The notes beneath the pieces are model-generated. The model did not search any database and was not told where the DNA came from. It was given only the letters and a program-made list of their open reading frames with translations. Of a stretch of DNA of 64,000 nt, positions 4,111 through 63,092 are shown piece after piece. This DNA is from a virus. The first letter of the stretch is position 1, and each line of letters starts with the position of its first letter. The stretch is taken from the IMG/VR virus record IMGVR_UViG_3300043823_000198, positions 101,634 through 165,633 of that record, one strand, 5' to 3'. The translations under genes and the position numbers were made by a program.

Positions 4111-4767
4111 ATGAAATTAAGTAAAGAAACCGTAGGATTGATCAAGAACTTTGCTGGTATTAACAGCAACCTGTTGTTGAAGTCTGGTAATAAACTTGCC
4201 ACAATCTCGGCTCAGAAAAATGTGATGGCTGACGCAACTGTCAAAGAAACATTCCCTGATTTTGGTATCTATGATCTCAATGAGTTCCTGGGTGCTATGT
4301 CTATCTTTGAAGATCCTGAGTTGGTTTTCAGTGAGAAATATGTTACTATTAAGCAAGGTAACATGAGCATTAAATATTTTGCTGCAGAAGCGAGTGTATT
4401 AACTGCACCTCAGAAATCAATTACCTTTCCACAAGCAGAAATTGAATTTAAACTTACTGCAGGTGTTTTAGATATGATTCGAAGAACTGCTGGTGTACTC
4501 CGAGCATCTGATTTAACTATTTCTGGTGACGGTAAAAACATTACTGCGATTGTTGGTGATAAAAAGAACGCAACAGGTAATACCTTTCAAGAACCAGTTG
4601 GAGAAACTGATAAGAAATTTACGGTTAATCTGAAAGTTGAAAATCTAAAAATGCTTCCAGGTGATTATAATGTAAGTGTATCTTCAAAGAAAATCTCTCG
4701 TTTTTCTGGCGCAGGCGATTTGGTATATTACGTTGCTGTTGAAGCTGACTCTTCTTTCGATTTCTAA
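4111..4767 (+). CDS. 45: Sliding clamp, DNA polymerase processivity factor (gp45)
   Basis: The 218-residue length (T4 gp45 is 228), the gene order with gp44, gp62 and regA downstream, and a repeating strand/helix pattern identify it as the T4-type trimeric clamp. It encircles DNA and tethers the gp43 polymerase; in T4 it is also the late-transcription coactivator. Segments such as LSKETVGLIKNFAGIN at the N-terminus resemble phage clamps. The halogenase gene begins two bases after the stop. Confidence 0.85.
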   Translation: MKLSKETVGLIKNFAGINSNLLLKSGNKLATISAQKNVMADATVKETFPDFGIYDLNEFLGAMSIFEDPELVFSEKYVTIKQGNMSIKYFAAEASVLTAPQKSITFPQAEIEFKLTAGVLDMIRRTAGVLRASDLTISGDGKNITAIVGDKKNATGNTFQEPVGETDKKFTVNLKVENLKMLPGDYNVSVSSKKISRFSGAGDLVYYVAVEADSSFDF

Positions 4768-4768
4768 G

Positions 4769-40133: not shown

Positions 40134-41933
40134 ATGAACGACATTGTGCATGGTATAAAAGTTGATTATAGTCGTGACGGATTATTCGATGAGTTGGGTA
40201 AGTTAAGATTAAAAGAAAGTTATATGAAGGATGAAGAGACAAGTCCTCAAGAGCGATTTGCGTTTGTCTCAAAACAATTTGGAAGCAATCCTGAACATGC
40301 GCAAAGATTATATGAATATTCAAGTAAGCATTGGCTCTCTTATTCTACTCCCATTCTTTCTTTTGGTAGGAGTAAGCGTGGTATGCCTATATCATGTTTC
40401 CTTAATTATATTGAAGACACTGCGGAGGGTTTAGTTGATAATCTTTCAGAAACTAATTGGCTATCTATGCTTGGCGGTGGCGTGGGTATTGGCTTTGGTA
40501 TACGGTCTGCTGATGACAAGTCTACTGGCGTTATGCCTCACCTTAAAATGTATGATGCTAGCTCTTTGGCGTATCGTCAGGGGCGCACGAGACGTGGTAG
40601 TTATGCTGCTTATCTTGATATCTCTCATCCTGATATTATTAATTTCTTAGAGATGCGCAAGCCAACTGGCGATCAGAACATGCGTACTCTCAACATGCAT
40701 CATGGTATTAATATTCCCGATGCGTTTATGGAGATCATTGAGAGATCTATGATCGATGACCAATCTGATGATTCATGGCAACTTATTGATCCTGCATCAA
40801 AAGAAGTTCGTGAAACTGTATCAGCAAGAGAATTGTGGCAACGTATTTTAGAAATGCGTATGCAAACTGGTGAGCCATACCTACATTTTATTGACGAATC
40901 AAATCGTAAACTACCACAATGGTTGAAGGACAAAGGACTAAAGGTTCATCAGTCAAACCTTTGTTCAGAAATCATTCTACCAACTAACGAGAAGCGAACA
41001 GCTGTTTGTTGTTTGTCTTCACTAAATCTGGAATACTATGATGAATGGAAAGATGATGTTCTATTTCTCCGTGATGTTGCTGAAATGCTCGACAATGTAC
41101 TTGAGTATTTTATACTTCATGCGCCTTCCACCATTAAGCGTGCAAGGTATTCTGCCTCACGTGAGCGCAGCATTGGCATCGGTGCTCTGGGCTGGCATGC
41201 TTATCTACAACGAAATTCAATTCCATGGGAATCCCCAATGGCAGTCGGAAGAAACAAACAAATCTTCGCTCATATCAGAGGAAAATTAGACGATGCGAAT
41301 AAAGAACTTGGACTGGAGCGTGGTGAGGCTCCTGATGCGGTTGGTACTGGAAATCGGTTTAGTCATCTTATGGCTATCGCTCCCAATGCTTCTTCTTCCA
41401 TTCTTATGGGCAATACCTCTCCTTCTATTGAACCTTATCGTGCCAATGCGTATCGCCAAGACACTCTATCAGGCTCGCATTTAAATAAGAATCGCTATCT
41501 TGATAAGTTGATTAAGCAGGAGGCTGAGAATCATAAGGAAGGTTGGTATGAAGACACTTGGAGTTCAATTATTGCGAACGATGGTTCAGTTCAGCACTTG
41601 GATTGGATGGGAGACTGGGCAAAGGATTGCTTCAAAACATCTATGGAAATTGACCAGCGTTGGGTCGTCCAACATGCCGCAGACAGGCAGGTATATATAG
41701 ACCAAGCGCAGTCGCTTAATGTGTTCTTCCGACCAGATAGTCATATCAAGTATATTCATGCGGTTCACTTCCAAGCATGGAAACAAGGATTGAAGACAAT
41801 GTACTATTGCCGTTCAGATAAGATTGCCAAGGCAGATAAAGTTGCCAAACGTATTGAGCGTGAGGTTATTAAAGAAATTGATTTAACAGCATTAACAGGT
41901 GACGCTGATACTTGCCTTGCGTGCGAAGGATAA
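40134..41933 (+). CDS. nrdA: Ribonucleotide reductase class I large subunit NrdA
   Basis: The 599-residue protein is short for NrdA (E. coli is 761) and has no N-terminal ATP-cone, as in many phage enzymes. It has the active-site motif SNLCSEI, the cysteine in TAVCCLSS, the RNR signature SSILMGNTSPSIEPY and a C-terminal CLAC. It reduces ribonucleotides with NrdB, encoded at 44049. Confidence 0.93.
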   Translation: MNDIVHGIKVDYSRDGLFDELGKLRLKESYMKDEETSPQERFAFVSKQFGSNPEHAQRLYEYSSKHWLSYSTPILSFGRSKRGMPISCFLNYIEDTAEGLVDNLSETNWLSMLGGGVGIGFGIRSADDKSTGVMPHLKMYDASSLAYRQGRTRRGSYAAYLDISHPDIINFLEMRKPTGDQNMRTLNMHHGINIPDAFMEIIERSMIDDQSDDSWQLIDPASKEVRETVSARELWQRILEMRMQTGEPYLHFIDESNRKLPQWLKDKGLKVHQSNLCSEIILPTNEKRTAVCCLSSLNLEYYDEWKDDVLFLRDVAEMLDNVLEYFILHAPSTIKRARYSASRERSIGIGALGWHAYLQRNSIPWESPMAVGRNKQIFAHIRGKLDDANKELGLERGEAPDAVGTGNRFSHLMAIAPNASSSILMGNTSPSIEPYRANAYRQDTLSGSHLNKNRYLDKLIKQEAENHKEGWYEDTWSSIIANDGSVQHLDWMGDWAKDCFKTSMEIDQRWVVQHAADRQVYIDQAQSLNVFFRPDSHIKYIHAVHFQAWKQGLKTMYYCRSDKIAKADKVAKRIEREVIKEIDLTALTGDADTCLACEG

Positions 41934-41934
41934 T

Positions 41935-43449
41935 ATGAAAGTTGTTATTGTTGGTGGAGGGGTTGCTGGATGGTATATAGCGCATTCTTTACAGAACCAC
42001 ACCAACTGTGACATAACAATAATTGATACTGACAGGATTAAGAAACTTCCTGTTGGAGAGACTTTAGATTTAGATGCACCCAATAATTTTAGAAATCTAC
42101 TACGACTAGGAAACGAGTACGAGTGGATGAAAGAGATTGGCGCTATTTATAAATTTGGTTCATTATATAACAATATGTTTGAACAAGACCCATACTCTAT
42201 GGTACATTGGGACTCATGGAATACAAATGGTTCTGGTCAAACAGGCGAGTTTAGTTCAAATAACATGTTAAATGTTATGGTATATCTGATAAAAACAGGT
42301 AAACTTTCTCATGATCAGGTTATAAATTCTATGAACGCTGGTTCTTATTTTGTTAGAAGTAATGTTTCTCCTTTCGTCAACGGTAAGTTAGAAGGTCTTC
42401 GCCACTACAGTTACAATTTGGATTCAGATAAATTTGCAGAATTCCTTAAAAAACGACCAAGAACAAAAATATCCCACATAAACAAATTTATTAAAGATGT
42501 CACATTTACAGATGGAAATGTTGATAAAATTGTTTTTGAAGACGATACAATATTAACTTCTGATCTATTTATCGACGCAAGTGGATTTTCAAGGGTTATC
42601 GCTAAAAGACATCCTCTTTTCAAATTTAATACTCTTGAACATTCTTACAACAACACTGCTGTTGTTGTTCCGACAAAATATAAAGATCCAGAATTTGAGA
42701 TGAGGCCAAACGTAACCTTTAATGGTTATGAAAATGGATGGGGGTTTAAAATAAATCTTTACCATAGGATAGGTAATGGAATATTATTTAATGATTCAGT
42801 TGTTGATGTTGAAGATGCTAGAAAAGAATTTTTATCTAAGATAGATGAAACTACATTATTGGGAGATCCAAAGACAATAAAATGGGAATCTGGATTTTAT
42901 GAAACTCCGCTCATCAATAACCTTATGGTAATGGGACAGGCTGCTGGATTTATCGAACCATGGAATTCTAATTTGATTAGTAGACTTAGTGGTGAAATTT
43001 ATGGACTGTTTGGGTTTATAAAAGAAAACAAACGTGAAGAATATAATTCTTTATTTAGAGATAGAATTAAACAGATAACCGAAATAATGACCAGTGAATT
43101 TACAACAAATAAATTTTCTTCTAAGTATTGGAATTGGTTTAAGTCTGGCAAATCCTCTAAAATAATATATGAAAATTTGAATTTTCAAAAATATAGTAAT
43201 CTTAAATTTCTTCCCTTTGTAGCTCCATATTATAGGATGTTAATTAGTAGAAAATTATCTCTTGATTGTTTAGATTTACCTATACCAAACTCAGATCAGA
43301 TACAAAAAACTATTAACTATCTAGAGATGAATACTAAAATGTTTGATGTGTTAAAAGATAAACAAACGCAGCCATATTATCTTTGGTTAAAGGAAAATGT
43401 ATATAATGGTATTACTTCTGAAGATTACTTAATGCAAGAAAATGGTTAA
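41935..43449 (+). CDS. Flavin-dependent halogenase-like enzyme (copy 2, divergent)
   Basis: The 504-residue protein starts two bases after nrdA. It keeps the FAD motif GGGVAGWY, VGETLD and a lysine at 73 matching the catalytic lysine position. The WxWxIP signature is replaced by WGFKIN, and the EPLE motif by IEPWNS. It is thus a member of the tryptophan-halogenase superfamily with altered active-site features, so it may not halogenate. The downstream gene overlaps it by eight bases. Base composition is more AT-rich than nrdA. Confidence 0.75.
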   Translation: MKVVIVGGGVAGWYIAHSLQNHTNCDITIIDTDRIKKLPVGETLDLDAPNNFRNLLRLGNEYEWMKEIGAIYKFGSLYNNMFEQDPYSMVHWDSWNTNGSGQTGEFSSNNMLNVMVYLIKTGKLSHDQVINSMNAGSYFVRSNVSPFVNGKLEGLRHYSYNLDSDKFAEFLKKRPRTKISHINKFIKDVTFTDGNVDKIVFEDDTILTSDLFIDASGFSRVIAKRHPLFKFNTLEHSYNNTAVVVPTKYKDPEFEMRPNVTFNGYENGWGFKINLYHRIGNGILFNDSVVDVEDARKEFLSKIDETTLLGDPKTIKWESGFYETPLINNLMVMGQAAGFIEPWNSNLISRLSGEIYGLFGFIKENKREEYNSLFRDRIKQITEIMTSEFTTNKFSSKYWNWFKSGKSSKIIYENLNFQKYSNLKFLPFVAPYYRMLISRKLSLDCLDLPIPNSDQIQKTINYLEMNTKMFDVLKDKQTQPYYLWLKENVYNGITSEDYLMQENG

Positions 43450-45219: not shown

Positions 45220-45645
45220 ATGTGGATATTTAATAATCTGATCGTTGAAGAACTTCCCGAAGACTGTGTTGGCTTTGTTTATTTAATTACGAACAAAGCC
45301 ACCAGTCGTATGTATATTGGTAAGAAGTTGGCCAAGTTCAGCAAGACTACCTACAAGACTGTTAAACTTAAGAACGGAACTAAAAAGAAAAAGAAAATAC
45401 GTGGAAAAATTGATTCTGATTGGCGAGATTACTATGGTTCAAGCATAGAACTAAATAAAGATATAGAGTCTCTGGGTAAAGAAAACTTTACTCGTGAGAT
45501 TCTTTTTTATTGTAAATCAAAAGCTGAATGTTCATATATTGAAGCGAGAGAACAGTTTTCTAGAAAGGTGTTAGAATCAGATCAATACTATAACGGACAG
45601 ATATCTGTTAGAGTCCATGGTTCTCATATTAAAGGTAAATTATGA
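45220..45645 (+). CDS. GIY-YIG-type endonuclease
   Basis: The 141-residue protein has a GFVYLI ... RMYIGKK motif pair, a variant of GIY-YIG, then a Lys-rich insertion and DYYGSS with SYIEAREQF. Such proteins in T4-like phages are mobile Seg-type nucleases. It lies just outside nrdAB. A TAATAAATA sequence precedes it, a weak late-promoter-like match. It overlaps the next gene by ATGA. Confidence 0.75.
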   Translation: MWIFNNLIVEELPEDCVGFVYLITNKATSRMYIGKKLAKFSKTTYKTVKLKNGTKKKKKIRGKIDSDWRDYYGSSIELNKDIESLGKENFTREILFYCKSKAECSYIEAREQFSRKVLESDQYYNGQISVRVHGSHIKGKL

Positions 45646-46751
45646 CATATCTATTATTTGCTTCAGCATTAGGCTTATCTGCCTGTGCTGCATATTATTC
45701 TGTTATGGGATTGGTTGCCATATTCGCAGCATCCGTAGTTCCAATCTTTATCATGGGTACTTTACTTGAAGCATCCAAATTAGTAGTAGCATCCTGGATT
45801 TATCGTAACTGGAAAGACATTCCTCTTATGATGAAATCTTATTTCACAATCGCATTAGTGATTTTAATGATGTTGACTTCAATGGGTATTTTTGGCTATC
45901 TATCCAAGGCACACTTGGACCAAAATATTCCTAGTGGCGATGTAGCGGCAAAACTTGCATTAATTGATGAGAAAATTAAAACCGAAAAGGAAAACATCAA
46001 TGCCAGTCGTAAAGAAATTACTCAACTTGATCAACAAGTGGATCAAACCATCGGCAGAACCACAGACGATAAAGGAGCTGAGCGAGCCATCGCCATCCGA
46101 AAAGGGCAGCAAAAAGATCGTCAAAGAATCCTCAAAGAAATCTCCGATTCGCAAACTAAACTCGCAGGTTACAACGAAGAGCGTGCTCCAATCGCGAGCG
46201 AAGTCAGAAAAGTCGAAGCAGAAGTTGGACCGATCAAGTACATAGCAGCACTAATATATGGCGATAACCCAGAGAGCGATGTTTTAGAAAAAGCAGTTCG
46301 CTGGGTTATCATTATGATTGTTTCAGTATTTGACCCACTTGCCGTTCTATTATTGATTGCCGCAAACTGGCAACAAAAACGTGATAGTGAAGATGATTCT
46401 TTTAAGGACAAACCAAATATAATTGATGAGGGTATTCTTCCAGAAGTCGAAGAAACGCCAAAAATAATTAGTATGTCAGTTGGTGATGTGGTTATTGTTG
46501 GAGAAGAAACTGATATAAAAACATCTTATGAAGACAAACCAGTCGAAGAAACTGCAACAGAAGAAGATTTAGATATTAAAGTTGATGAATCCAAAGACTG
46601 GGAAGCATCTCTTTATGACAGAATTGATAATAGAACAGAAGAAATTTCTTCAAATAAAGCAAAAAGTTTCTTATCTAAAGCAAAAGATGTATTTACAACT
46701 GGTATAAAAACTATTGAAACTGAAGTCGAAGAAATCCAAAAGAATAAATAA
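45642..46751 (+). CDS. Multi-span membrane protein with coiled coil
   Basis: The 369-residue protein has three N-terminal hydrophobic segments (about residues 1-50 and 65-88), a coiled coil (105-180), another hydrophobic segment (220-245, KAVRWVIIMIVSVFDPLAVLLL) and an acidic tail. The layout resembles DUF4407-type membrane proteins. Role unknown; perhaps superinfection exclusion or lysis timing. Confidence 0.6.
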   Translation: MTYLLFASALGLSACAAYYSVMGLVAIFAASVVPIFIMGTLLEASKLVVASWIYRNWKDIPLMMKSYFTIALVILMMLTSMGIFGYLSKAHLDQNIPSGDVAAKLALIDEKIKTEKENINASRKEITQLDQQVDQTIGRTTDDKGAERAIAIRKGQQKDRQRILKEISDSQTKLAGYNEERAPIASEVRKVEAEVGPIKYIAALIYGDNPESDVLEKAVRWVIIMIVSVFDPLAVLLLIAANWQQKRDSEDDSFKDKPNIIDEGILPEVEETPKIISMSVGDVVIVGEETDIKTSYEDKPVEETATEEDLDIKVDESKDWEASLYDRIDNRTEEISSNKAKSFLSKAKDVFTTGIKTIETEVEEIQKNK

Positions 46752-46768: not shown

Positions 46769-47293
46769 ATGGCAGAAGTAAAACCTCTATCTCGTTCAGA
46801 GAGAGAAGCGAAAATCAAAGATAAAGCTGGCTGGGCAATTACTGTCCTTGCAGCTGCATTGGCAATCAATACATACTTCGGGAATGCCAATTCGAGTAAA
46901 ATTCTAAATAATACAATTGCAATAAACGACGTATGGTCATTTTATCAGGCCAAGTCAATAAAACAAAGTATTACTGAGATGGCTATCGATCAAACTAAAG
47001 ATCCAGAAAGAAAAAAACAGCTACAGGCTAAAGTTGAGCGATATGAAACCGATCCTATTAGTGGTGAAGGTAAAAAAGAATTATCAGCTAAAGCCAAAAA
47101 GTTAGATTCAGAAAGAATAGAAGCCAAGAAGAATTCTCCTTGGTATACATTCGCTGGTTCTACATTACAAATTTCAATCGTTTTATTATCAGCATCAATT
47201 TTGTCCGTAAGCATGGGTATGTTTTGGGCAAGCATTGGTGTTGGTGCTGTTGGAATTTTGTTAATGCTACAAGCAATGATGGCAATTATATAA
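46769..47293 (+). CDS. Membrane protein with central coiled coil
   Basis: The 174-residue protein has an N-terminal span (about 25-40), a charged helical middle and two C-terminal hydrophobic segments (about 127-173). The ribosome site AAAGGA precedes the ATG. It probably works with the neighbouring membrane protein. A perfect 7-bp AATTCGA/TCGAATT hairpin follows at 47292-47310. Confidence 0.6.
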   Translation: MAEVKPLSRSEREAKIKDKAGWAITVLAAALAINTYFGNANSSKILNNTIAINDVWSFYQAKSIKQSITEMAIDQTKDPERKKQLQAKVERYETDPISGEGKKELSAKAKKLDSERIEAKKNSPWYTFAGSTLQISIVLLSASILSVSMGMFWASIGVGAVGILLMLQAMMAII

Positions 47294-47388: not shown

Positions 47389-47916
47389 ATGATTAGATTA
47401 AATCAAATCGCTGCTGTGGCAGCATTAGCATTTGTGTGCGTAAATGTATCGGCACAAACAGACCCAATCGTAACTCAAAGCACTAGCACTAGTACAGCTA
47501 CGAATAATGGTTCGACAACAACCAAGGTAATCTCACCACCACCAACAGCAGTTGCACCAACCATCACAACTATCAATAATGATGTTTGTGCCACAGCTGC
47601 ATCAGGTGCAGTTCAAACACAAATTCTTGGTATCTCCATGGGTGGTACAACAAGAGATATGAATTGTGAGCGTATTAAACTTTCTAAGAACCTATACGAC
47701 ATGGGTATGAAAGTTGCTGCGGTTGCTACTCTATGCCAAGACGATAGAGTATTTAAAGCAATGCTCGATGCTGGAACACCATGCCCAATACAAGGTAAGA
47801 TTGGTGAACAAGCAAAAGAACTTTGGACTGCCAAAGGACGTATTAAAGAAGAAGATATCGTTCAGTTACCAGAAAAGAAAAAAGAAGAACCAGTTAGAGA
47901 GTCTGGCGAGAAGTAA
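47389..47916 (+). CDS. Secreted protein with signal peptide
   Basis: The 175-residue protein has a signal peptide ending at SAQ (about residue 23), a Thr/Ser-rich region, then a cysteine-containing domain and a Glu/Lys-rich tail. It overlaps the next gene by one base; GGAGGGG lies about 26 bases upstream. Likely secreted to the periplasm. Confidence 0.65.
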   Translation: MIRLNQIAAVAALAFVCVNVSAQTDPIVTQSTSTSTATNNGSTTTKVISPPPTAVAPTITTINNDVCATAASGAVQTQILGISMGGTTRDMNCERIKLSKNLYDMGMKVAAVATLCQDDRVFKAMLDAGTPCPIQGKIGEQAKELWTAKGRIKEEDIVQLPEKKKEEPVRESGEK

Positions 47917-50111
47917 TGAAACTCTTAGCAGTTATCTTTTCTGCTATTTTAGTTGCTGGTTTAGGTAAATGCAGCAACGTACATGCGCAGACTGGAGTTT
48001 CTCCTAACCTAGTCGCTGTTCCTTATAGTTCTCCGACCAATGTTATCAACTATACTGGAACAGGTGGTGGGGTTTCAGGAGGAGCAACTCCTGGTCTGAA
48101 CACATCTAGTAATGTTCTCTATTTTGGCTATACCCAGCAGACAGTGGCATACGCATACGCTTTTAATCAAGCACTTCAAAACAGCGGTATGACTATTACT
48201 GGGTATAATTACTCATGGGATTATTTGAATCAAGGGTATAGCGCAGGTACTTTATCTGCCAATTTAAATTTCTCTGGAACAAATGGAACTTCTCTTTACA
48301 GTAAGAGTTGGTCCTTGGGAACTACTACTAATTGGACAACTGTAAGTGGAACTGATACATTACCAAATAATGGATTGCTGGCTTCAAGCATAGCAAATTT
48401 CTCTTTATCTTTTACTGGTAAAGATAATCGTTATTGGGCAGGTTATTATGGTCCACAAGTTAGAAACCCCTCTTTATCTTTGAACTACACATTTGATGTA
48501 TGTTCAACAAATCCATTATCAAGTCCAAATTGCCCAGGATATGCTGCTGCATATCTTACGCAACAGTGTAACGCAAATCCTTTATATAATTCTAGTTGTC
48601 CAGGATATGCTGCTGCTTTATATACTCAACAATGTAATGCGAACCCTCTTTCTGATCCTGGATGCCCAGGATATGCTGCTGCATATCTAACATATCAGTG
48701 TTCAGTTAACCCACTTTACTCAACTACTTGTTCAGGATATGCCACAGCCTACCACAATCAACAATGCGCAGCGAATCCATTATATGCTACTGATTGCTCA
48801 GGATATCAACAAGCGTATCTTGCACAACAATGCTCTGCTAATCAACTTTATTCAACAAGTTGTCCAGGTTATGCTGTTACCTACCACAATCAACAGTGTG
48901 CCGCCAATCAACTCTACGCAACAGACTGTCCAGGATACCAACAAGCGTATCTAGGGCAACAGTGTAGTTTGAATCAGTTGTATAGTACATCATGTCCAGG
49001 ATATCAAGCAGCATATACTCAACAACAATGTTCAACAAATCCTTTATACAGTACAACTTGTACGGGATATGCGCAGGCATATTTTAATCAACAATGCTCA
49101 GCAAACCCTTTATATAATTCTAGTTGTCCAGGATATGGTCAAGCATACTTTAATCAACAATGCTCCATCAATCCATTGTATAATGTTAACTGTACTGGGT
49201 ATACCCAAGCATATCACATGCAACAGTGTACAGCCAATCCACTATATGCAAGCGATTGTCCAGGATACCAACAAGCATACTTTAATCAACAATGTTCATT
49301 AAATGGATTGTATAGCACACAGTGTCCAAACTATGCCACTGCTTATGCCACACAACAAGCGTTACAACAATCAACAGCAACTACTAAAAGCAGTACCGCA
49401 ACTACTACAAACACAACTACAGCTGCTCCTGTTGTAGTTGCTGCGGCAACAACTACGGCAACTTCTACTGGTACCACATCATCGGTTCCTGTTGCTGTTG
49501 TTTCAAATCCAGTTGTTAACACCATTGTAACATCAACGTCAACTGCCACTAACTCAGCTACTGCTCCAGCTGCAGCAGTTTCATTAACACCATCGGCAGC
49601 AAGTACCACAACAACAGCCACTGTTCAATCAACAGCAACAACTGATAGTTCTTCAAGCTCAAGTAGTTCAACTACAAGTTCTTCTAGCAGTTCTTCTTCA
49701 AGCTCAAGTAGTTCTACGTCATCTAGTTCTTCTGCTTCTACGCCAATGCCGACAACTTCTGGGGTTCAAAGTGCGCCTCCAGCAAAATCAGCTCGTCAAG
49801 AAATTCAAGAGAAGCGTGAAGCAGCTGCAAAAGAAAAAGCAGTAGAAGAAGGTAAGAAAGCTGACGCAAGCAAAGCTGCAAACTTCGAACAGCAGTTGAA
49901 GGTTCAGAATGTTGTTATCCAGGCAATGGGTTTCACACCTGGATTCCAAACATATAATTTTATAATGCCAGACGGTATTGGTTATAGATCATACAGCGTC
50001 TATAACAATCAAACCAACGTTGATAATAAACGACTAGGATGGGGTCTGTACGGACCATCTGATAAATTACATAATGAACTAGTAGAATCACAATATAACA
50101 GAGGAAATTAA
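47916..50111 (+). CDS. Secreted repeat protein with thirteen 22-residue cysteine repeats
   Basis: The 731-residue protein has a signal peptide (cleavage near VHA-QTG), a beta-rich Ser/Gly/Asn region (residues 30-190), thirteen 22-residue repeats (196-481) with consensus CxxNPLYxxxCxGYxxAYxxQQ, a long Ser/Thr/Ala stalk with poly-serine, and a C-terminal 130-residue domain that ends with a Tyr-rich globular part. Two Cys per repeat suggests disulfide-stabilised units outside the cytoplasm. It may be a virion adhesin or envelope protein; I know no family. Confidence 0.75.
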   Translation: MKLLAVIFSAILVAGLGKCSNVHAQTGVSPNLVAVPYSSPTNVINYTGTGGGVSGGATPGLNTSSNVLYFGYTQQTVAYAYAFNQALQNSGMTITGYNYSWDYLNQGYSAGTLSANLNFSGTNGTSLYSKSWSLGTTTNWTTVSGTDTLPNNGLLASSIANFSLSFTGKDNRYWAGYYGPQVRNPSLSLNYTFDVCSTNPLSSPNCPGYAAAYLTQQCNANPLYNSSCPGYAAALYTQQCNANPLSDPGCPGYAAAYLTYQCSVNPLYSTTCSGYATAYHNQQCAANPLYATDCSGYQQAYLAQQCSANQLYSTSCPGYAVTYHNQQCAANQLYATDCPGYQQAYLGQQCSLNQLYSTSCPGYQAAYTQQQCSTNPLYSTTCTGYAQAYFNQQCSANPLYNSSCPGYGQAYFNQQCSINPLYNVNCTGYTQAYHMQQCTANPLYASDCPGYQQAYFNQQCSLNGLYSTQCPNYATAYATQQALQQSTATTKSSTATTTNTTTAAPVVVAAATTTATSTGTTSSVPVAVVSNPVVNTIVTSTSTATNSATAPAAAVSLTPSAASTTTTATVQSTATTDSSSSSSSSTTSSSSSSSSSSSSSTSSSSSASTPMPTTSGVQSAPPAKSARQEIQEKREAAAKEKAVEEGKKADASKAANFEQQLKVQNVVIQAMGFTPGFQTYNFIMPDGIGYRSYSVYNNQTNVDNKRLGWGLYGPSDKLHNELVESQYNRGN
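48501..49358 (+). repeat. Thirteen tandem 66-bp coding repeats
   Basis: The segment is exactly 13 units of 66 bases, all in frame. Units differ mainly at third positions and at variable residues, so the repeat is old or under selection at the protein level. It is not a CRISPR array. Confidence 0.9.
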
Positions 50112-50112
50112 A

Positions 50113-50631
50113 ATGACAGACTTAGACAAAAAAGTAGATGAATTAGAAGCAGCTAAAGAAAAGTACATGAGCGCAAATACTGTTATCAGTATCGGTGGTT
50201 ATGAATTCACACCAGCAAAATTAATGGTGGCATTCACTCTTATCTCTTCAACACTAGGTGGTCTATATGGTGCGTTTGAAGTGTATAAAGACTACCAAGA
50301 TATGAAAACTAAAATCGCCAAATATGTATCACCAGACTTATCTGAGTTCGATAAGCGTCTTGCTGTTTTAGAACAAAATAGTCAGAAGCAGGTTGATGCC
50401 ACTGACACAATTAAAAACGATTTAAAAAGTGATATCCGTCATCTAGGAGATACAGTTGATGCTGTTGAACGTTCTTCTAAACAAACACAACGTGATGTTT
50501 CACAAGACATCCAAGATGTACGTAAAGAACTGCGAACATCATCTAAGGAAACAGAAAGCAGACTTCAACAAATTAGTAAAGATGTTGATAATAAAATTCA
50601 GAAAGCATTAGATAATCCTTTGGCTCACTAA
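50113..50631 (+). CDS. Coiled-coil membrane protein
   Basis: The 172-residue protein has a membrane span (about 33-55) and a long coiled coil (80-165). It starts just after the repeat protein. It resembles small phage proteins that anchor complexes to membranes. Function unknown. Confidence 0.6.
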   Translation: MTDLDKKVDELEAAKEKYMSANTVISIGGYEFTPAKLMVAFTLISSTLGGLYGAFEVYKDYQDMKTKIAKYVSPDLSEFDKRLAVLEQNSQKQVDATDTIKNDLKSDIRHLGDTVDAVERSSKQTQRDVSQDIQDVRKELRTSSKETESRLQQISKDVDNKIQKALDNPLAH

Positions 50632-50653: not shown

Positions 50654-50998
50654 ATGAAGAAAATACTTTTGTCTGTATTCGTATTGTTATCTGGCTGTTC
50701 TTTAATGCCAAGATCGCATGATGGCGCAATGTTTGATGATCTAGTGTCAGTAAAAATTGCAATTGAAAAATTAGATTGCTCAAATAGAGATTGGTATTGG
50801 AATGATGCCAAAGATAAAATTAGAAGACTAGAAATTTATACCCAATGGCGTGGAGATCCACAAGCAGGTTCAATCTCACAATTAGGTATTACTCTTGGTA
50901 AAGCTGAAGACACTAAAAATGAAGTTTTTTGCGAAGACCTGTTAAAGATAAATAAAACAAGAATTGAAGTTATCGCTGACGCATGGAAGGGAAGATAA
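50654..50998 (+). CDS. Small lipoprotein
   Basis: The 114-residue protein has a lipobox LSGC (Cys15) after a hydrophobic signal. The mature part has helical segments and two Cys. It may be a second outer-membrane lipoprotein of the phage, besides the spanin. GGAG precedes the ATG. Confidence 0.7.
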   Translation: MKKILLSVFVLLSGCSLMPRSHDGAMFDDLVSVKIAIEKLDCSNRDWYWNDAKDKIRRLEIYTQWRGDPQAGSISQLGITLGKAEDTKNEVFCEDLLKINKTRIEVIADAWKGR

Positions 50999-51231
50999 TG
51001 TTAGAACAGTTAAGAGAACAAGCAGGATTGGGTGGACCAGCAGCACAATTAGCCAATCAATTATTGGTTATTCGTGAGCAGTATGAGACGCAAATTATTA
51101 CAACTGATGAATATCAATTTCTTTTGCAACAGATTGCTGAAGTTCAAGCAGCACAAGATCTTGCAAACGACGAAGTTGCGATGAGGTTTATAGTCAATTC
51201 AGCTGAATTTCTTGCGAGTCAGCTTTTATAA
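50998..51231 (+). CDS. Small helical protein
   Basis: The 77-residue protein is Gln/Ala-rich and helical (LREQAGLGGPAAQLANQLL). ATG at 50998 overlaps the lipoprotein stop. Role unknown. A terminator follows. Confidence 0.6.
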   Translation: MLEQLREQAGLGGPAAQLANQLLVIREQYETQIITTDEYQFLLQQIAEVQAAQDLANDEVAMRFIVNSAEFLASQLL

Positions 51232-51254
51232 GTCTAAAGTTTTACTTTAACATA

Positions 51255-51279
51255 AAACCCTACTGACAGTAGGGTTTTT
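51255..51279 (+). terminator. Rho-independent terminator (cassette copy 3)
   Basis: AAACCCTACT (51255-51264) pairs with AGTAGGGTTT (51268-51277), followed by more T residues. It closes the membrane/secreted protein unit. Confidence 0.85.
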
Positions 51280-51290
51280 CATCATTTTGC

Positions 51291-51318
51291 TTGACATTTA
51301 TTGCAAATAGAGTATAAT
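51291..51318 (+). promoter_or_regulatory. Sigma70-type promoter (cassette copy 3)
   Basis: TTGACA (51291-51296), extended to TTGACATTTA, and TATAAT (51313-51318) are 16 bases apart. It drives the MazG-like and phosphatase genes. Confidence 0.88.
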
Positions 51319-57284: not shown

Positions 57285-57712
57285 AAGAAAAATGGATTAA
57301 AGCATTCATGGACACAGCGGCAAGGTTCGCTGACTTGTCCAGCGCAGTTCGATTGAAGGTTGGTTCAGTTGTTGTAAAAGACAACCGTATCATCTCTATC
57401 GGATACAACGGCACACCTGCGGGTTGGGACAATGCGTGCGAGTATGTGGAATACGATGACAATGGTGATCCACTTGGAACAAAAACGAAGGACGAAGTTA
57501 TTCATGCAGAAGCCAATGCGATTGCTAAGCTCGCCCGTGATGGTGAGTCTGGTAGTGGCGCTACTTTATTTGCAACTCATGCTCCTTGCGTTCAGTGCGC
57601 CAAACTGATTTACGGTGCAGGAATTACTAAGGTTTACTACAAAAATTCCTACCGAAACACTGCTGGTTTGGATTTTCTAAACAAATGTGGAATTGAAACG
57701 GAACAAGTTTAA
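57281..57712 (+). CDS. cd: dCMP deaminase
   Basis: The 143-residue protein has the zinc deaminase motif HAEANAI and PCVQCAK, the SIGYNGTPAGWDN segment and a basic substrate region. It makes dUMP from dCMP, feeding ThyX. It overlaps upstream by ATGA and downstream by one base. Confidence 0.93.
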   Translation: MKEKWIKAFMDTAARFADLSSAVRLKVGSVVVKDNRIISIGYNGTPAGWDNACEYVEYDDNGDPLGTKTKDEVIHAEANAIAKLARDGESGSGATLFATHAPCVQCAKLIYGAGITKVYYKNSYRNTAGLDFLNKCGIETEQV

Positions 57713-59229
57713 TGAAAAATATTGTTATTCTTGGTGGTGGTGCTGCTGGTTGGTTAACATGTTTATTTTTAAAAAAACAATGGCCAACACTTGATATTAC
57801 TGTTGTTGAAGATCCATCTAAACCACCAATAATTGCTGGTGAATCTGGATCATATGCTCTTAATAATCTGTTTAACGATCTTGACATTGATATTTTTCAA
57901 TGGGTTATCAATACCAATGCGATGCCAAAAAATGGCGCCAAATTTCATGATTGGACTAAACTGAATCATACATTCACACATTCAATAATTGATCCTAAAA
58001 GAAGAGAGGAACAAAAACGTAAAACAACCCTTAGCGATATTACGTTTGATATGATCACACTATCAAAAGAAATTACTATCTCAGATTCTTACACCTGGGG
58101 AACTTTAATTCATGAAAACATGGTACCGTTTATTAAAACAGACGATCGTGGGTATGATGCCATGACACACCCAATGTTTCATTTTGATAGCAGAGCAAAT
58201 GCTGCTTACCTGAAAAAACTTGGAATTGAAAGAGGTGGTAAACTTCGTGAAGGAAAGTTTGTTGAGGCGAAACGTGATGTCGATAATGGAAACATTCTTT
58301 CTCTTTTGTTTGATGATGGAACAACTATTGATGGAGACTTTTTTTTTGATTGTTCTGGTTTCGCCAAACTATTGTTGAAGGGTGCGCTTGATGTTAAATT
58401 TGATGACTACTCTCAATATTTTCCAGCATCATCTGTTCTTGGATGGTGGGGATCTGAGATAGAGAATAAATCTTATACTGACATAACTGCTTTAAAAAAT
58501 GGATGGACCTTCAATATCAATATCAGAAACAGAAGCGGTAATGGTTACATTTATGATAATAGTGAAATATCAGTAGATCAGGCTATAGAGGAAATTGAAA
58601 CAAAATTTGGTAAAAAAATTGAACCAATTGCTTCTTTTACATATCAACCAGATCTTGCAACTGAATTTTGGAAAAATAATGTAATTGGTATTGGAATAAG
58701 TACTGGTTTCGTTGAACCGCTTGAATCAAATGGTCTAGGTACTGTTGTGCATAGTATCATTAATCTAAGTCCATACTGGGATCCAGAAAATAAAGATTTT
58801 CATGTTGAACGTAAATTATATAATGAAGAGATGATTAAAATGGCCAAAGGTGTTATTGATTTTTTAAATTTACACTATAGAGGTAAAAGAACAGACACAA
58901 ACTACTGGCGAAAACTTAAAGATCGCAAATTTTGGACTGATAGAGTTTGCGATTATGTTGATCTGTGGAGCAATGGTAATCTTGGTGAGTATACTTTATA
59001 TTCAGCTTATGGTTTCGGAAGTTTTTTTACTGTTGCTCAGGCTCTTGAGCTTATAAATGTTGAAAAAATTAAAGAAAAAGTTTCTAAAGTTGATACTAAT
59101 ATTGTAAAACAATACGATGATATTGTTATACCAATTCAGCAAGAGTACAAAAAGCGTATCTTAAACGAATGCTATAAGATAGATGATTGGAAAAATGCAT
59201 TTTATGCAGGATTGAATAAAAATCCTTGA
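57712..59229 (+). CDS. Flavin-dependent halogenase-like enzyme (copy 3, divergent)
   Basis: The 505-residue protein has GGGAAGWL, AGESGSY, lysine 73 in MPKNGAKFHDW and FVEPLESNG, close to halogenase consensus. The WxWxIP signature is altered to WTFNIN. It directly follows dCMP deaminase, the start overlapping its stop by one base. It is intermediate between copy 1 and copy 2 in motif conservation. Substrate unknown. Confidence 0.8.
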   Translation: MKNIVILGGGAAGWLTCLFLKKQWPTLDITVVEDPSKPPIIAGESGSYALNNLFNDLDIDIFQWVINTNAMPKNGAKFHDWTKLNHTFTHSIIDPKRREEQKRKTTLSDITFDMITLSKEITISDSYTWGTLIHENMVPFIKTDDRGYDAMTHPMFHFDSRANAAYLKKLGIERGGKLREGKFVEAKRDVDNGNILSLLFDDGTTIDGDFFFDCSGFAKLLLKGALDVKFDDYSQYFPASSVLGWWGSEIENKSYTDITALKNGWTFNINIRNRSGNGYIYDNSEISVDQAIEEIETKFGKKIEPIASFTYQPDLATEFWKNNVIGIGISTGFVEPLESNGLGTVVHSIINLSPYWDPENKDFHVERKLYNEEMIKMAKGVIDFLNLHYRGKRTDTNYWRKLKDRKFWTDRVCDYVDLWSNGNLGEYTLYSAYGFGSFFTVAQALELINVEKIKEKVSKVDTNIVKQYDDIVIPIQQEYKKRILNECYKIDDWKNAFYAGLNKNP

Positions 59230-60387: not shown

Positions 60388-60461
60388 TCCTCGATAGTGT
60401 AGCGGTAACACAGTTGACTTTGACTCAACTATCACAAGTTCGAATCTTGTTCGGGGTGCCA
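60388..60461 (+). tRNA. tRNA-Gln (anticodon TTG)
   Basis: The cloverleaf has GTG/CAC D stem, anticodon stem GTTGA/TCAAC with loop CTTTGAC, T arm ACAAG/CTTGT and encoded CCA. Bases 1 and 72 are unpaired, as in many tRNA-Gln. Confidence 0.85.
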
Positions 60462-60691
60462 TATAGAAACACATTATGTCAGTGAGGAGGCACCAAGTTG
60501 TGTGCAACGGTAGTGTGTTTTTATATGGTATAGCTTAATTCAAGAGCAGTGGGCACACAGGCGTCAACGACTACCCATCAATGCAGGTGCAACCCCTGCT
60601 ACCATATAAAAACACACTAACCAATCGGTTTAAAGGGTCGCCGAGATGCCAAGAGGTATGTATAGCCCTGTTAGTGTGTTTTTATATGGTA
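60457..60691 (+). repeat. Four-copy 20-base repeat arms (two inverted, two direct)
   Basis: The arm TAGTGTGTTTTTATATGGTA occurs at 60511-60530 and 60672-60691. Its exact reverse complement is at 60600-60619, and a 17/20 match to that is at 60457-60476. The arms can form hairpins enclosing 34, 69 or 52 bases. The enclosed segments are not clear tRNAs. They resemble stable small RNA units placed among the tRNAs, like T4 RNAs C and D, or eroded tRNA genes. Confidence 0.7.
60524..60606 (+). ncRNA. tRNA-like structured element, unassigned
   Basis: TATGGTA (60524-60530) pairs with TACCATA (60600-60606) like an acceptor stem, and GCAGG/CCTGC with loop TGCAACC resembles a T arm. GCTT/GAGC resembles a D stem. 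No clear anticodon arm is found, so it is either a decayed tRNA or another RNA. Confidence 0.35.
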
Positions 60692-60695
60692 TAAT

Positions 60696-60770
60696 GCAGG
60701 TATAACTCAATGGTAGAGTAATCGGCTTTTAACCGATAAGCTGTGAGTTCGAGTCTCACTGCCTGTACCA
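60696..60770 (+). tRNA. tRNA-Lys (anticodon TTT)
   Basis: Anticodon stem ATCGG/CCGAT with loop CTTTTAA, T arm GTGAG/CTCAC and encoded CCA. The 1-72 pair is G-T. Confidence 0.92.
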
Positions 60771-60789
60771 TCTAAAATAAAAAGACTAC

Positions 60790-60864
60790 GGTGACTATGG
60801 TGTAATGGTAGCACCCGACTCTGTGAAAGTCGTAGCACGAGATCGATACTCGTTAGTTACCCCA
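60790..60864 (+). tRNA. tRNA-His (anticodon GTG)
   Basis: Anticodon stem CGACT/AGTCG with loop CTGTGAA. An extra 5' G (60790) opposite C73 gives the histidine identity pair. Encoded CCA. Confidence 0.9.
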
Positions 60865-60866
60865 AT

Positions 60867-60942
60867 GCAACTTTAGCTGATGTGGTCATAGCGGTGGTCT
60901 GAAGAACCATTGAAAGAGGTTCGATTCCTCTAGGTTGCACCA
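60867..60942 (+). tRNA. tRNA-Phe (anticodon GAA)
   Basis: Acceptor GCAACTT/AGGTTGC, anticodon loop CTGAAGA, T arm AGAGG/CCTCT, encoded CCA. Confidence 0.9.
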
Positions 60943-60954
60943 AAGATGTCCTTT

Positions 60955-60977
60955 CGCCTAGAAAATAATTAGGCGAT
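60955..60977 (+). other. Hairpin between tRNAs
   Basis: TCGCCTA pairs with TAGGCGA around a 9-base A-rich loop. It sits in the 69-base spacer between tRNA-Phe and tRNA-Ile and may be a processing site. Confidence 0.5.
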
Positions 60978-61011
60978 AAAGAGTGGAGATGGGATCCCAC
61001 CCAAATATTTT

Positions 61012-61085
61012 CCTCTTGTAGCTCAAAGGTAGAGCAATCGGCTGATAACCGATAGACACAGGATCGTTCCCTGTCGAGAGGACCA
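61012..61085 (+). tRNA. tRNA-Ile (anticodon GAT)
   Basis: Acceptor CCTCTTG/CGAGAGG, anticodon stem ATCGG/CCGAT with loop CTGATAA, T arm ACAGG/CCTGT, encoded CCA. Confidence 0.9.
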
Positions 61086-61092
61086 AGTTTTC

Positions 61093-61166
61093 GCCCTACT
61101 AGTATAATGGTATTACGTCGGTTTTGTAATCCGAATACGGCAGTTCGATTCTGTCGTGGGGCACCA
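61093..61166 (+). tRNA. tRNA-Thr (anticodon TGT)
   Basis: Acceptor GCCCTAC/GTGGGGC, anticodon loop TTTGTAA with a T-T mismatch at the top of the stem, T loop TTCGATT, encoded CCA. Confidence 0.88.
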
Positions 61167-61174
61167 GTTTTTAT

Positions 61175-61251
<77 letters not shown>

Positions 61252-61256
61252 AGTTT

Positions 61257-61331
61257 GGGCTGTTAGTGATAATGGGAGCACGCTGGCTTTGCACGTCAGA
61301 GGTAAGAGTTCGATTCTCTTACGGTCCACCA
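61257..61331 (+). tRNA. tRNA-Ala (anticodon TGC)
   Basis: Acceptor GGGCTGT/ACGGTCC, anticodon loop TTTGCAC, T arm AAGAG/CTCTT, encoded CCA. The alanine G3-T70 identity pair is present. Confidence 0.9.
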
Positions 61332-61340
61332 AATTTTTAT

Positions 61341-61416
61341 GCGGGAGTATCTCAGTTGGTAGAGAGCTTGCTTGCCAAGCAAGATGTCGCGAGTTCGAAC
61401 CTCGTCTCCCGCTCCA
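61341..61416 (+). tRNA. tRNA-Gly (anticodon GCC)
   Basis: Acceptor GCGGGAG/CTCCCGC, anticodon stem CTTGC/GCAAG with loop TTGCCAA, encoded CCA. Confidence 0.93.
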
Positions 61417-61422
61417 AATTAT

Positions 61423-61496
61423 GCCTCGTTAGTTGAATGGTAAAACACCCTCCTTACAAGTGGGATACGGCAGTTCGATTCTGTCACGAGGTACCA
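61423..61496 (+). tRNA. tRNA-Val (anticodon TAC)
   Basis: Acceptor GCCTCGT/ACGAGGT, anticodon loop CTTACAA with one T-T mismatch in the stem, T loop TTCGATT, encoded CCA. Confidence 0.87.
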
Positions 61497-61502
61497 AGTT
61501 AT

Positions 61503-61578
61503 GCCCGATTGGTGAAATGGATAATCATACTGTGCTACGAACGCAGAGGTAGGGGTTCGATTCCCTTATTGGGTACCA
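61503..61578 (+). tRNA. tRNA-Arg (anticodon ACG)
   Basis: Acceptor GCCCGAT/ATTGGGT, anticodon stem CTGTG/CGCAG with loop CTACGAA, encoded CCA. The A34 is normally edited to inosine by the host TadA. Confidence 0.9.
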
Positions 61579-61582
61579 AATT

Positions 61583-61656
61583 TGTAGTTGAGACTCGAGA
61601 CAAATCCACTGTTAAATAAAGAGAGAACTGAGTGGTACTCTCCAACTACATTTTTT
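61583..61656 (+). terminator. Long stem-loop with T6, terminator-like or small RNA
   Basis: TGTAGTTG (61583-61590) pairs with CAACTACA (61643-61650), followed by TTTTTT. Inside, CCACT pairs with AGTGG. It lies between tRNA-Arg and tRNA-Ser and may be an intracluster terminator or a small RNA. Confidence 0.5.
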
Positions 61657-61661
61657 AATAC

Positions 61662-61752
61662 GGAGACGTGGTCGAGTTGGTTTATGGCTCTAGTCTTGAA
61701 AACTAGCGAATTAGAAATAGTTCCGTGGGTTCGAATCCCACCGTCTCCTCCA
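61662..61752 (+). tRNA. tRNA-Ser (anticodon TGA)
   Basis: Acceptor GGAGACG/CGTCTCC, anticodon stem CTAGT/ACTAG with loop CTTGAAA, long variable arm typical of class II, encoded CCA. Confidence 0.92.
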
Positions 61753-61773
61753 ATTTTTATGAAAGGAAAAGTT

Positions 61774-62340
61774 ATGCCAAGCGTATTCTTAGTAAGCGAC
61801 ACGCACTTTGGTCATGCTGGTGTGACTAAATTTTTGCGTGCTGATGGTAGTAAATTGCGACCATGGGATTCTGTTGAAGAAATGGATGAAGCAATGGTAA
61901 AAGCATGGAACGAAACAGTGAAACCAACTGATAAAGTTTATCATTTGGGTGATGTAGTTATCAATCGTAAAGCACTTTCGATTATGCATCGTTTGAATGG
62001 CGATAAAGTTTTGATTCGTGGTAACCATGATATCTTTAGAGATGATGAATACCGTCAACACTTTAGAGAATTGCGTGCGTACCATGTAATGAATGGCATG
62101 ATACTTTCACATATCCCTATTCATACTGAAAGTTTGGGTAGGTTTGGTGTGAACATTCATGGTCACTTACACAGTAATCGTGTTATGATTACTGATCAAT
62201 ACGATGTTACTAAAGTAGATCCAAGATACCACTGCGTCTGCGTTGAACAAACAGACTTCAGACCCATCTTGTTTGAGCAAGTGATCCAAAAAATCAAAGA
62301 CGAAGGTGGTGTTGTTGGATTTAAAAATGGTAATCATTAG
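61774..62340 (+). CDS. Metallophosphoesterase
   Basis: The 188-residue protein starts at ATG 61774 behind AAAGGA (in-frame ATG at 61759 is the alternative). It has VSDTHFGH, HLGDVV, RGNHD, SHIPIH and GHLHS, the five calcineurin-like metal motifs. It sits in the tRNA cluster; a link to RNA repair is only a guess. Its stop codon overlaps the next tRNA by one base. Confidence 0.85.
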   Translation: MPSVFLVSDTHFGHAGVTKFLRADGSKLRPWDSVEEMDEAMVKAWNETVKPTDKVYHLGDVVINRKALSIMHRLNGDKVLIRGNHDIFRDDEYRQHFRELRAYHVMNGMILSHIPIHTESLGRFGVNIHGHLHSNRVMITDQYDVTKVDPRYHCVCVEQTDFRPILFEQVIQKIKDEGGVVGFKNGNH

Positions 62341-62429
62341 GAGAGTGGGCAGGATGGTAATGCAGCGGATTGCTAATCCGTACACTTATGAAAGTAGGTG
62401 AGTGGGTTCAATTCCCACACTCTCCACCA
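62340..62429 (+). tRNA. tRNA-Ser (anticodon GCT)
   Basis: Acceptor GGAGAGT/ACTCTCC, anticodon stem GCGGA/TCCGT with loop TTGCTAA, long variable arm, encoded CCA. Base 1 is the G of the upstream TAG stop. Confidence 0.9.
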
Positions 62430-62433
62430 AATT

Positions 62434-62510
62434 GCGGATGTGATGGAATTGGTATACATATCAGACTTAAAATCTGAGTTCTGAGGGTTCGAGTCCCTCC
62501 ATCCGTACCA
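62434..62510 (+). tRNA. tRNA-Leu (anticodon TAA), short variable arm
   Basis: Acceptor GCGGATG/CATCCGT, anticodon stem TCAGA/TCTGA with loop CTTAAAA, T arm GAGGG/CCCTC, encoded CCA. The variable region is only about five bases (GTTCT), whereas bacterial tRNA-Leu normally has a long arm. Confidence 0.85.
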
Positions 62511-62516
62511 GTTTAT

Positions 62517-62591
62517 CTCGCTTTAGTATAATGGATAATACAGTAGGCTTCTACCCTACGAATGTGGGTTCGATTCCTGCAGGCGAGACCA
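62517..62591 (+). tRNA. tRNA-Arg (anticodon TCT)
   Basis: Acceptor CTCGCTT/AGGCGAG, anticodon stem GTAGG/CCTAC with loop CTTCTAC, encoded CCA. It reads AGA/AGG codons common in AT-rich phages. Confidence 0.9.
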
Positions 62592-62597
62592 GTTGTT

Positions 62598-62672
62598 GGG
62601 CTTATAGCATAAAGGTAGTGCTGTCAACTCATAATTGATAAGGTAGTGGTTCGAATCCACTTGAGCCCACCA
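62598..62672 (+). tRNA. tRNA with anticodon CAT (Met or Ile2)
   Basis: Acceptor GGGCTTA/TGAGCCC, anticodon stem GTCAA/TTGAT with loop CTCATAA, encoded CCA. Whether it is elongator Met or a lysidine-modified Ile tRNA cannot be told from the anticodon alone. Confidence 0.85.
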
Positions 62673-62673
62673 T

Positions 62674-62751
62674 GCCCCTGTGGACAAATTGGCAAAGTCG
62701 CTTCTCTCAAAAGGAAGAGTTCTCTCAGTTCAAATCTGAGCAGGGGTACCA
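62674..62751 (+). tRNA. tRNA-Leu (anticodon CAA), short variable arm
   Basis: Acceptor GCCCCTG/CAGGGGT, anticodon stem CTTCT/GGAAG with loop CTCAAAA, T arm CTCAG/CTGAG, encoded CCA. The variable region is again only six bases. Confidence 0.82.
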
Positions 62752-62757
62752 AATTAT

Positions 62758-62833
62758 GTGGGTGTGTCCCGAAAGGCTAGGGGAGGGATTGCAAATCCTT
62801 TTTATGCAGGTTCGATTCCTGTCACCTACTCCA
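62758..62833 (+). tRNA. tRNA-Cys (anticodon GCA)
   Basis: Acceptor GTGGGTG/CACCTAC, anticodon stem AGGGA/TCCTT with loop TTGCAAA, T arm GCAGG/CCTGT, encoded CCA. Confidence 0.85.
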
Positions 62834-62836
62834 ATA

Positions 62837-62855
62837 ACCCTACTTGCAATAGGGT
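62837..62855 (+). terminator. Hairpin (cassette copy 5)
   Basis: ACCCTA (62837-62842) pairs with TAGGGT (62850-62855). It separates two parts of the tRNA array, immediately before a promoter. Confidence 0.65.
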
Positions 62856-62869
62856 AATAAAAATATCGC

Positions 62870-62898
62870 TTGACATTTATATCAAGTTGATGTATAAT
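62870..62898 (+). promoter_or_regulatory. Sigma70-type promoter (cassette copy 5)
   Basis: TTGACA (62870-62875), extended to TTGACATTTA, and TATAAT (62893-62898) have a 17-base spacer. It restarts transcription of the second tRNA group. Confidence 0.87.
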
Positions 62899-62937
62899 TA
62901 AGTTTCTTTAGTTGATAATCAAAAATCCTCTCTAAGT

Positions 62938-63013
62938 CTTTACGTAAAGTCGGAAGCATGAGGTGATACTGCTGGTTTGGTGGATTTTACCAGTTAATAC
63001 CAAAAATCCACCA
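62938..63013 (+). other. Structured leader before tRNA-Glu
   Basis: CTTTACGTAAAG (62938-62949) is a perfect palindrome, and TGGTGGATTTT (62978-62988) pairs with AAAATCCACCA (63003-63013). They lie between the promoter and tRNA-Glu; possibly a small RNA or processing signal. Confidence 0.5.
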
Positions 63014-63017
63014 CTCT

Positions 63018-63092
63018 GCACGGTTCGTCTATCGGTTAGGACACCAGCCTTTCACGTTGGTAAGACGGGTTCGATTCCCGTACCGTGTACCA
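63018..63092 (+). tRNA. tRNA-Glu (anticodon TTC)
   Basis: Acceptor GCACGGT/ACCGTGT, anticodon stem CCAGC/GTTGG with loop CTTTCAC, T arm ACGGG/CCCGT, encoded CCA. Confidence 0.9.

Follow-up and report, generated by a model that had tools for sequence, protein, structure and literature searches.

Organization of the locus

The window, that is the whole stretch of viral DNA analyzed here, comprises 64,000 nucleotides (positions 101,634 to 165,633 of the IMG/VR record IMGVR_UViG_3300043823_000198). The record has 165,633 bases, and its B-family polymerase is closest to those of marine T4-type myophages with 55% identity. Within the window three adjacent genes, designated c1, c0 and c2, form the core of a predicted operon. 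The following features were assigned in this region, coordinates being those of the window.

45642–46751, plus strand: membrane protein of 369 amino acids, a frequent though optional upstream neighbor in 31–34 of 122 loci
46769–47293, plus strand: DUF4337 membrane protein (Pfam PF14235, E 2.6e-29), a frequent though optional neighbor in 22 of 122 loci
47389–47916, plus strand: c1, small secreted partner of 175 amino acids with a signal peptide, a Ser/Thr/Asn-rich stretch and four invariant Cys
47916–50111, plus strand: c0, repeat protein of 731 amino acids, whose start codon shares bases with the stop of c1 (TAATG)
47916–47990, plus strand: c0 signal peptide, residues 1–25 (sequence heuristic; AlphaFold helix 3–15)
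48033–48500, plus strand: c0 head, approximately residues 40–195, predicted beta-sandwich related to the FBA (sugar-recognizing F-box) domain (profile, Foldseek, pLDDT)
48501–49358, plus strand: c0 repeat array, residues 196–481 (sequence, AlphaFold model, homologue survey)
49380–49787, plus strand: c0 Ser/Thr/Ala-rich linker, residues 489–624 (pLDDT < 50)
49647–49733, plus strand: Ser tract in the c0 linker, residues 578–606 (sequence)
49791–50108, plus strand: c0 conserved C-terminal helical domain, residues 626–731 (alignment)
50113–50631, plus strand: c2, predicted single-pass membrane protein of 172 amino acids with a coiled coil and a C-terminal DNPL motif (alignment)
50654–50998, plus strand: lipoprotein of 114 amino acids with the lipobox LLSGC, the next gene after c2 in the operon (sequence)
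50983–51231, plus strand: ORF of 82 amino acids, the last before the terminator, partly shared (L008; clusters c55 and c56)
51254–51278, plus strand: predicted intrinsic terminator (consensus match only), which would close the operon

The initial annotation had described c0 as a secreted protein with thirteen Cys repeats followed by a Ser stalk. This was right but limited to the middle of the protein; the head, the C-terminal domain and the two partner genes were missed. Export of c0, which had also been proposed, is well supported by its sequence. The N-terminus of c0 is signal-peptide-like, as are those of 106 of the 109 non-redundant c0 homologues and of all 180 c1 homologues, compared with 147 of 705 control ORFs. 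Neither a lipobox nor a barrel that would place the protein at the outer surface was found in c0. The proposed flexible stalk was recovered as the Ser/Thr-rich linker, which is probably disordered as judged from its low pLDDT. The C-terminal domain is present in 156 ORFs and was modeled as helical with modest confidence.

Elsewhere in the window, three genes (4676–6253, 41899–43449 and 57712–59229) match the "tryptophan halogenase" family PHROG 2928 with E values of 1e-55 to 1e-101, and 19 tRNA genes are clustered at 60388–63092.

The 22-residue repeat array of c0

The array consists of 13 consecutive units with the consensus CxxNPLYxxxCxGYxxAYxxQQ, each of exactly 22 residues and without any insertion or deletion. 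Cys1, Asn4, Leu6, Cys11, Tyr14 and Gln22 are invariant in all 13 units, while Pro5 occurs in nine and Tyr7 in eleven. The self-identity of the protein at a lag of 22 residues was 0.62 (maximum of 2000 shuffles, 0.16), which confirms the thirteen repeats originally reported. At the nucleotide level the units share an identity of 0.46 at third codon positions versus 0.70 at first and second positions. Thus, the repeat is maintained by selection at the protein level and does not stem from a recent duplication of the DNA.

The structure of c0 was predicted with AlphaFold2 using 16 aligned sequences. In the model each unit forms one 12-residue helix and a ten-residue Cys-bounded loop, with the first Cys located at one end of a helix and the second within the loop. 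The pLDDT of the array was mostly 75–86 and lower near residue 310. The pTM of the whole model was 0.33, so that the overall shape of c0 is not predicted. The prediction supports a helical unit and an elongated spacer as part of the postulated disulfide-rich rod, but not a rigid rod.

Among 111 non-redundant c0 homologues the number of units ranges from 0 to 21, and 594 of approximately 650 repeat spacings are exactly 22. Of these 111 proteins, 105 have an even number of Cys residues in the mature part, in agreement with the paired Cys suggested before; this fits the formation of disulfides but is no demonstration of it. The array changes in length by whole units: loci with flanks of 97–100% identity differ by 66 nt (L151/L165 and L171/L059) or 132 nt (L003/L156).

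Profile searches of Pfam, NCBIfam and PHROGs revealed no family with an assigned function for the repeat, and the original statement that no described family was known for it was thereby upheld for these collections. The same searches gave no functional family for c1 or c2. The only matches were weak ones to PHROG 20531 (matched by c1) and PHROG 30205, both of unknown function. No description of the repeat or of the trio was found in limited searches of the open-access literature, so both are provisionally regarded as not described.

An FBA-like head that is exchanged between loci

In the AlphaFold2 model the head forms a beta-sandwich at approximately residues 60–193, with a pLDDT of mostly 84–92 over residues 60–170. 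When a profile of 14 heads was compared with the PDB using hmmsearch, the sugar-recognizing F-box proteins FBXO6 (E 5.4e-6), FBXO44 (E 9.7e-5) and FBXO2 (E 4.6e-4) were matched, the FBXO6 match running over DxxFWAGxYGPxVxNxS. A Foldseek search of the PDB with the head model returned FBA proteins (Fbs1, Fbs2 and FBG3) for all of the top ten matches, with E values of 3e-8 to 3e-6. The curated cut-off of the Pfam FBA family (PF04300) was not reached by the heads; the best E value was 0.04, and matches were seen in two of 14 heads. By profile and predicted fold the c0 head is FBA-like. It differs from FBXO2, FBXO6 and FBXO44 in that c0 carries no F-box and is an exported phage protein.

In Fbs1, the residues Phe177, Tyr279 and Trp280 hold GlcNAc-GlcNAc (PMC4603797). 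Tyr279-Trp280 of Fbs1 aligns with a Phe/Tyr-Trp pair of the phage heads, the Trp being invariant in the head alignment. However, FBG3 retains the equivalent sugar-site residues yet binds no sugar (PMC4603797), so the FBA fold is no proof of sugar binding. We infer that the c0 head may bind a glycan.

The 111 c0 homologues include single FBA-like heads (39 proteins), tandem FBA-like heads (28), heads with the pattern FPFYG..NG..CC (31) and minimal forms (8). The FPFYG..NG..CC class is unrelated to the FBA-like class, and searches of Pfam and the PDB revealed no known relatives of it. An assignment of this class as nidogen-like found no support in either database.

Heads are swapped between these unrelated classes, as judged by sequence comparison, while c1, c2 and the C-terminus of c0 are conserved. 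In 234 pairs of loci whose c1 and c2 share 75% identity or more, the heads were mostly 20–50% identical and the C-terminal domains mostly 60–80%. In the pair L171/L053 the flanks are 93–94% identical and the signal peptide is kept, but the head is replaced. A c1 tree of 93 rows contains at least 18 changes of head class, seven of them forced by well-supported branches; the classes are still clustered on this tree relative to shuffled labels. Replacement of the head on an otherwise constant base suggests that the ligand varies, and exchange could reflect variable ligands other than glycans as well. A second copy of the c0 head was not found in the other genes of the phage; therefore, a receptor shared with its own tail fiber could not be demonstrated.

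Conserved partner proteins c1 and c2

The core of c1 is predicted to be all-helical. Its alignment contains 33–38 invariant columns, and no match for its fold was found in the PDB. The protein c2 has one apparent transmembrane segment and a coiled coil, both read from the sequence, and is predicted to be anchored in the membrane. The C-terminal NPL of c2 is invariant in the alignment, which suggests a conserved docking site. In the window this end of c2 is encoded at 50583–50628; the c2-like proteins of isolates, although these phages have diverged strongly, also terminate in NPL followed by one to three residues.

The order of the three genes is conserved. Either c0 or its minimal form follows c1 in about 110 of 122 non-redundant c1 loci, and c2 adjoins c1 or c0 in 97 of the 122, always on the same strand. 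In all 20 records of 32–374 kb inspected for copy number c1 is a single-copy gene. The minimal c0 variant has about 290 amino acids and no array; in 12–16 loci three further small secreted proteins are encoded between it and c2 (for example L080 7379–8685, L093 7348–8617 and L101 7334–8753). By eye these were taken as pilin- or chaperone-like, for which Pfam gave no support.

Distribution among phages

Scans of IMG/VR yielded 541 confirmed c0 loci and at least 598 c1 loci, from which 80 loci each were kept for c0 and c1. Among 84,980 prokaryote genomes a single confirmed locus was found, on a phage-like contig of an Alteromonadales MAG. A tblastn search of 50,697 phage records with c0, its repeats or its head gave no match, so that isolates were reached only via c1 and c2. 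The c1 gene is present in the Pelagibacter phages HTVC115P, Mosig, Baldr, HTVC033P, HTVC202P and HTVC023P, in the Roseobacter phages CRP-207 and CRP-810 and in the uncultured phage S28-C10. Most c1-bearing isolates encode a secreted protein without Cys repeats in the place of c0, together with a c2-like protein that has NPL at its C-terminal end.

Two of these proteins, each labeled "putative carbohydrate binding domain containing protein" (in HTVC033P, gp45, and in S28-C10), resemble c0 in secretion, in their place between c1 and c2, and in having a binding-type head, a low-complexity middle and a similar C-terminal layout. They differ in the head itself and in a Glu/Pro-rich spacer without Cys repeats, and are annotated by domain only. 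Two proteins of the Roseobacter phages are labeled "lysozyme". CRP-810 gp51 (OR671924.1, 44624–45046) reads as a c2-like membrane and coiled-coil protein ending in NPLGR, and its label is probably wrong. CRP-207 gp73 (MZ892987.1, 51023–51604) matched only Pfam models of the coiled-coil type.

Genomic neighborhood and a possible role in lysis

Where at least 5.8 kb was available on both sides of the trio (26 loci), lysis-type genes were located downstream in 15 and upstream in one. The lysis-type set included GH19 endolysin, holin-like proteins, a small YRYPCQDP protein and S11 carboxypeptidase, among others; "holin-like" refers to size, membrane segments and neighbors, as curated models gave only a weak holin match. 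In the window and at other loci, nrd genes and a gene for a GIY-YIG endonuclease are neighbors of the trio. In the phage studied here, about 124 kb separate the GH19 endolysin gene from the cassette. Thus, the linkage to lysis genes is not universal. A fatty-acid desaturase-like membrane protein with histidine boxes is encoded near the trio in 12 loci (e.g., L073 10716–11417).

The T4-type late promoter TATAAATA occurs six times in the window, which corresponds to chance level, and no late promoter was seen before c1. A perfect sigma70-type match, TTGACA-16-TATAAT, is located at 51291–51318 directly after the terminator and is the sole 12/12 match in the 8 kb scanned.

This neighborhood makes it possible, if doubtful, that the trio is a lysis tether which works like a spanin without belonging to the spanins. 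In such a tether c2 would span the inner membrane and, as a coiled coil, the periplasm, c1 would bridge and the c0 head would grip peptidoglycan or an outer-membrane glycan, thereby aiding disruption or release of the outer envelope. Besides the downstream position of lysis-type genes, S11 carboxypeptidase is found in 12 loci, and in HTVC033P, HTVC023P, S28-C10, ct7L0027 and ctXG6705 the trio lies near lysozyme, M15/amidase, peptidase or chitinase genes. The binding of GlcNAc-GlcNAc by the FBA fold of Fbs1 (PMC4603797) and the membrane segment and coiled coil of c2 are consistent with this role. With its predicted anchor and coiled coil c2 also resembles lambda-type spanins (Rz/Rz1), which, however, lack counterparts of the secreted c1 and c0, and the PHROG spanin match reached an E value of only about 0.03. 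A lipoprotein gene follows c2 in the window but in just 10 of 86 loci. Since a cognate outer-membrane lipoprotein is not general, a spanin pair was rejected, and the same finding weighs against a tether, as does the remote endolysin gene of this phage. Moreover, peptidoglycan varies little. A tether would explain the neighborhood and c2, but not the hypervariable heads.

Proposed function in the envelope of the infected cell

Tentatively, and as a plausible rather than a probable reading, we regard c0 as an exported modular envelope protein with a lectin-like head, which together with c1 and c2 acts late and occupies host-specific glycans of the envelope. The protein would be sent by Sec to the envelope of the infected cell and would not be an ordinary part of the virion. 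From the N- to the C-terminus it would present an exchangeable head, a spacer that varies in length by whole units, the flexible linker rich in Ser/Thr, and a C-terminal domain that is constant and is probably the docking site for c1 and for the membrane-anchored coiled-coil protein c2. Production of c0 is probably late, with action around lysis, and the head would most likely occupy or hold host-specific envelope glycans. In this way receptors of the class used by the phage itself would be masked, rival phages kept out and progeny saved from loss on debris. The initial annotation left the choice between an adhesin and a host-envelope factor. Given the signal peptides of c0 and c1 and the predicted membrane anchor of c2, a host-envelope factor is favored over an adhesin of the virion.

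An adhesin acting between cells is an unlikely alternative, in which an exported rod sticks infected or dying cells to their siblings and so brings new hosts to the progeny. Such "sibling capture" has been proposed for pelagiphage curli (PMC7029224, PMC9599517). An exchangeable lectin-like head on a spacer of variable length is indeed an adhesin-like anatomy and would account for the heads. CsgG was not found in the own record or in any of the 20 trio-bearing records tested. HTVC008M (NC_020484) encodes CsgG without c1, and Mosig (MT647606), which infects the same host, encodes c1 without CsgG. From these few genomes there is a hint that curli and trio may replace each other, but only a single phage with CsgG underlies this alternation. 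Against an adhesin, the cassette offers no secretion route through the outer membrane.

Curlin repeats are similar in length to the c0 units. No curlin match was obtained for c0 in Pfam, and the c0 repeat is Cys-bounded and predicted to be helical. Like the CsgA/B proteins that accompany CsgG/F in pelagiphages (PMC7029224, PMC9599517), c0 is a phage-encoded exported repeat protein. As the likeness to CsgA is one of period only and CsgG is missing from the own record and the 20 trio-bearing records, curli were rejected.

A virion-borne receptor-binding or decoration fiber is improbable. The variable head, variable spacer and constant tail of c0 resemble tail fibers, tailspikes and tail fibers appear below the FBA matches in the Foldseek list, and the S28-C10 trio lies a few genes after a tail fiber and a SPRY protein. 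However, the signal peptides of c0 homologues and c1 argue against a virion component, and in many genomes the trio stands beside nucleotide-metabolism or lysis genes. Equally improbable is a secreted decoy or inhibitor without adhesive role, for instance a periplasmic protein binding proteases or hydrolases, in which case other proteins of the envelope would drive the exchange of heads: export and anatomy alone would permit it, but the head matches a glycan-binding fold.

Receptor occupation is preferred because it accounts for the variability of the head as well as for the lysis neighborhood, and because T5 and BF23 achieve it with Llp lipoproteins that block the receptor and have the same function while being unrelated in sequence (PMC4728585). 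T5 Llp thereby has the effects proposed above for c0, although the two proteins are unrelated. On the preferred reading c0 and Llp are alike in being phage products of the infected cell that are directed to its envelope. They differ in that Llp is an outer-membrane lipoprotein encoded beside the gene of the receptor-binding protein, whereas c0 is large and modular, has no lipobox and comes with two partner genes, its neighbors being the DUF4337, c1, c2 and nrd genes.

As a design, an exported binding head on a spacer with an anchor is familiar; the present combination, with a head of the FBA-like type, appears to be undescribed. More speculatively, the trio may represent an envelope apparatus common to marine and freshwater phages, from podoviruses of 32 kb to contigs of 374 kb. 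In it, an exchangeable-head lectin on a Cys-bounded helical ladder would be exported and docked to periplasmic c1 and the membrane coiled coil c2, would manage access to host glycans at lysis and may replace phage curli.

The trio or a relative of it occurs in hundreds of viral contigs and in SAR11 and Roseobacter phage isolates, mostly as "hypothetical proteins", and it supplies a genomic context for PHROG 20531. With the FBA-like head, phages would possess a relative of a fold that is familiar chiefly from the ubiquitin ligases of eukaryotes. Should the head bind glycans of the host, it would give direct access to the ways in which such phages compete for their hosts or leave them, and the exchanged heads would represent a set of naturally exchanged lectins.
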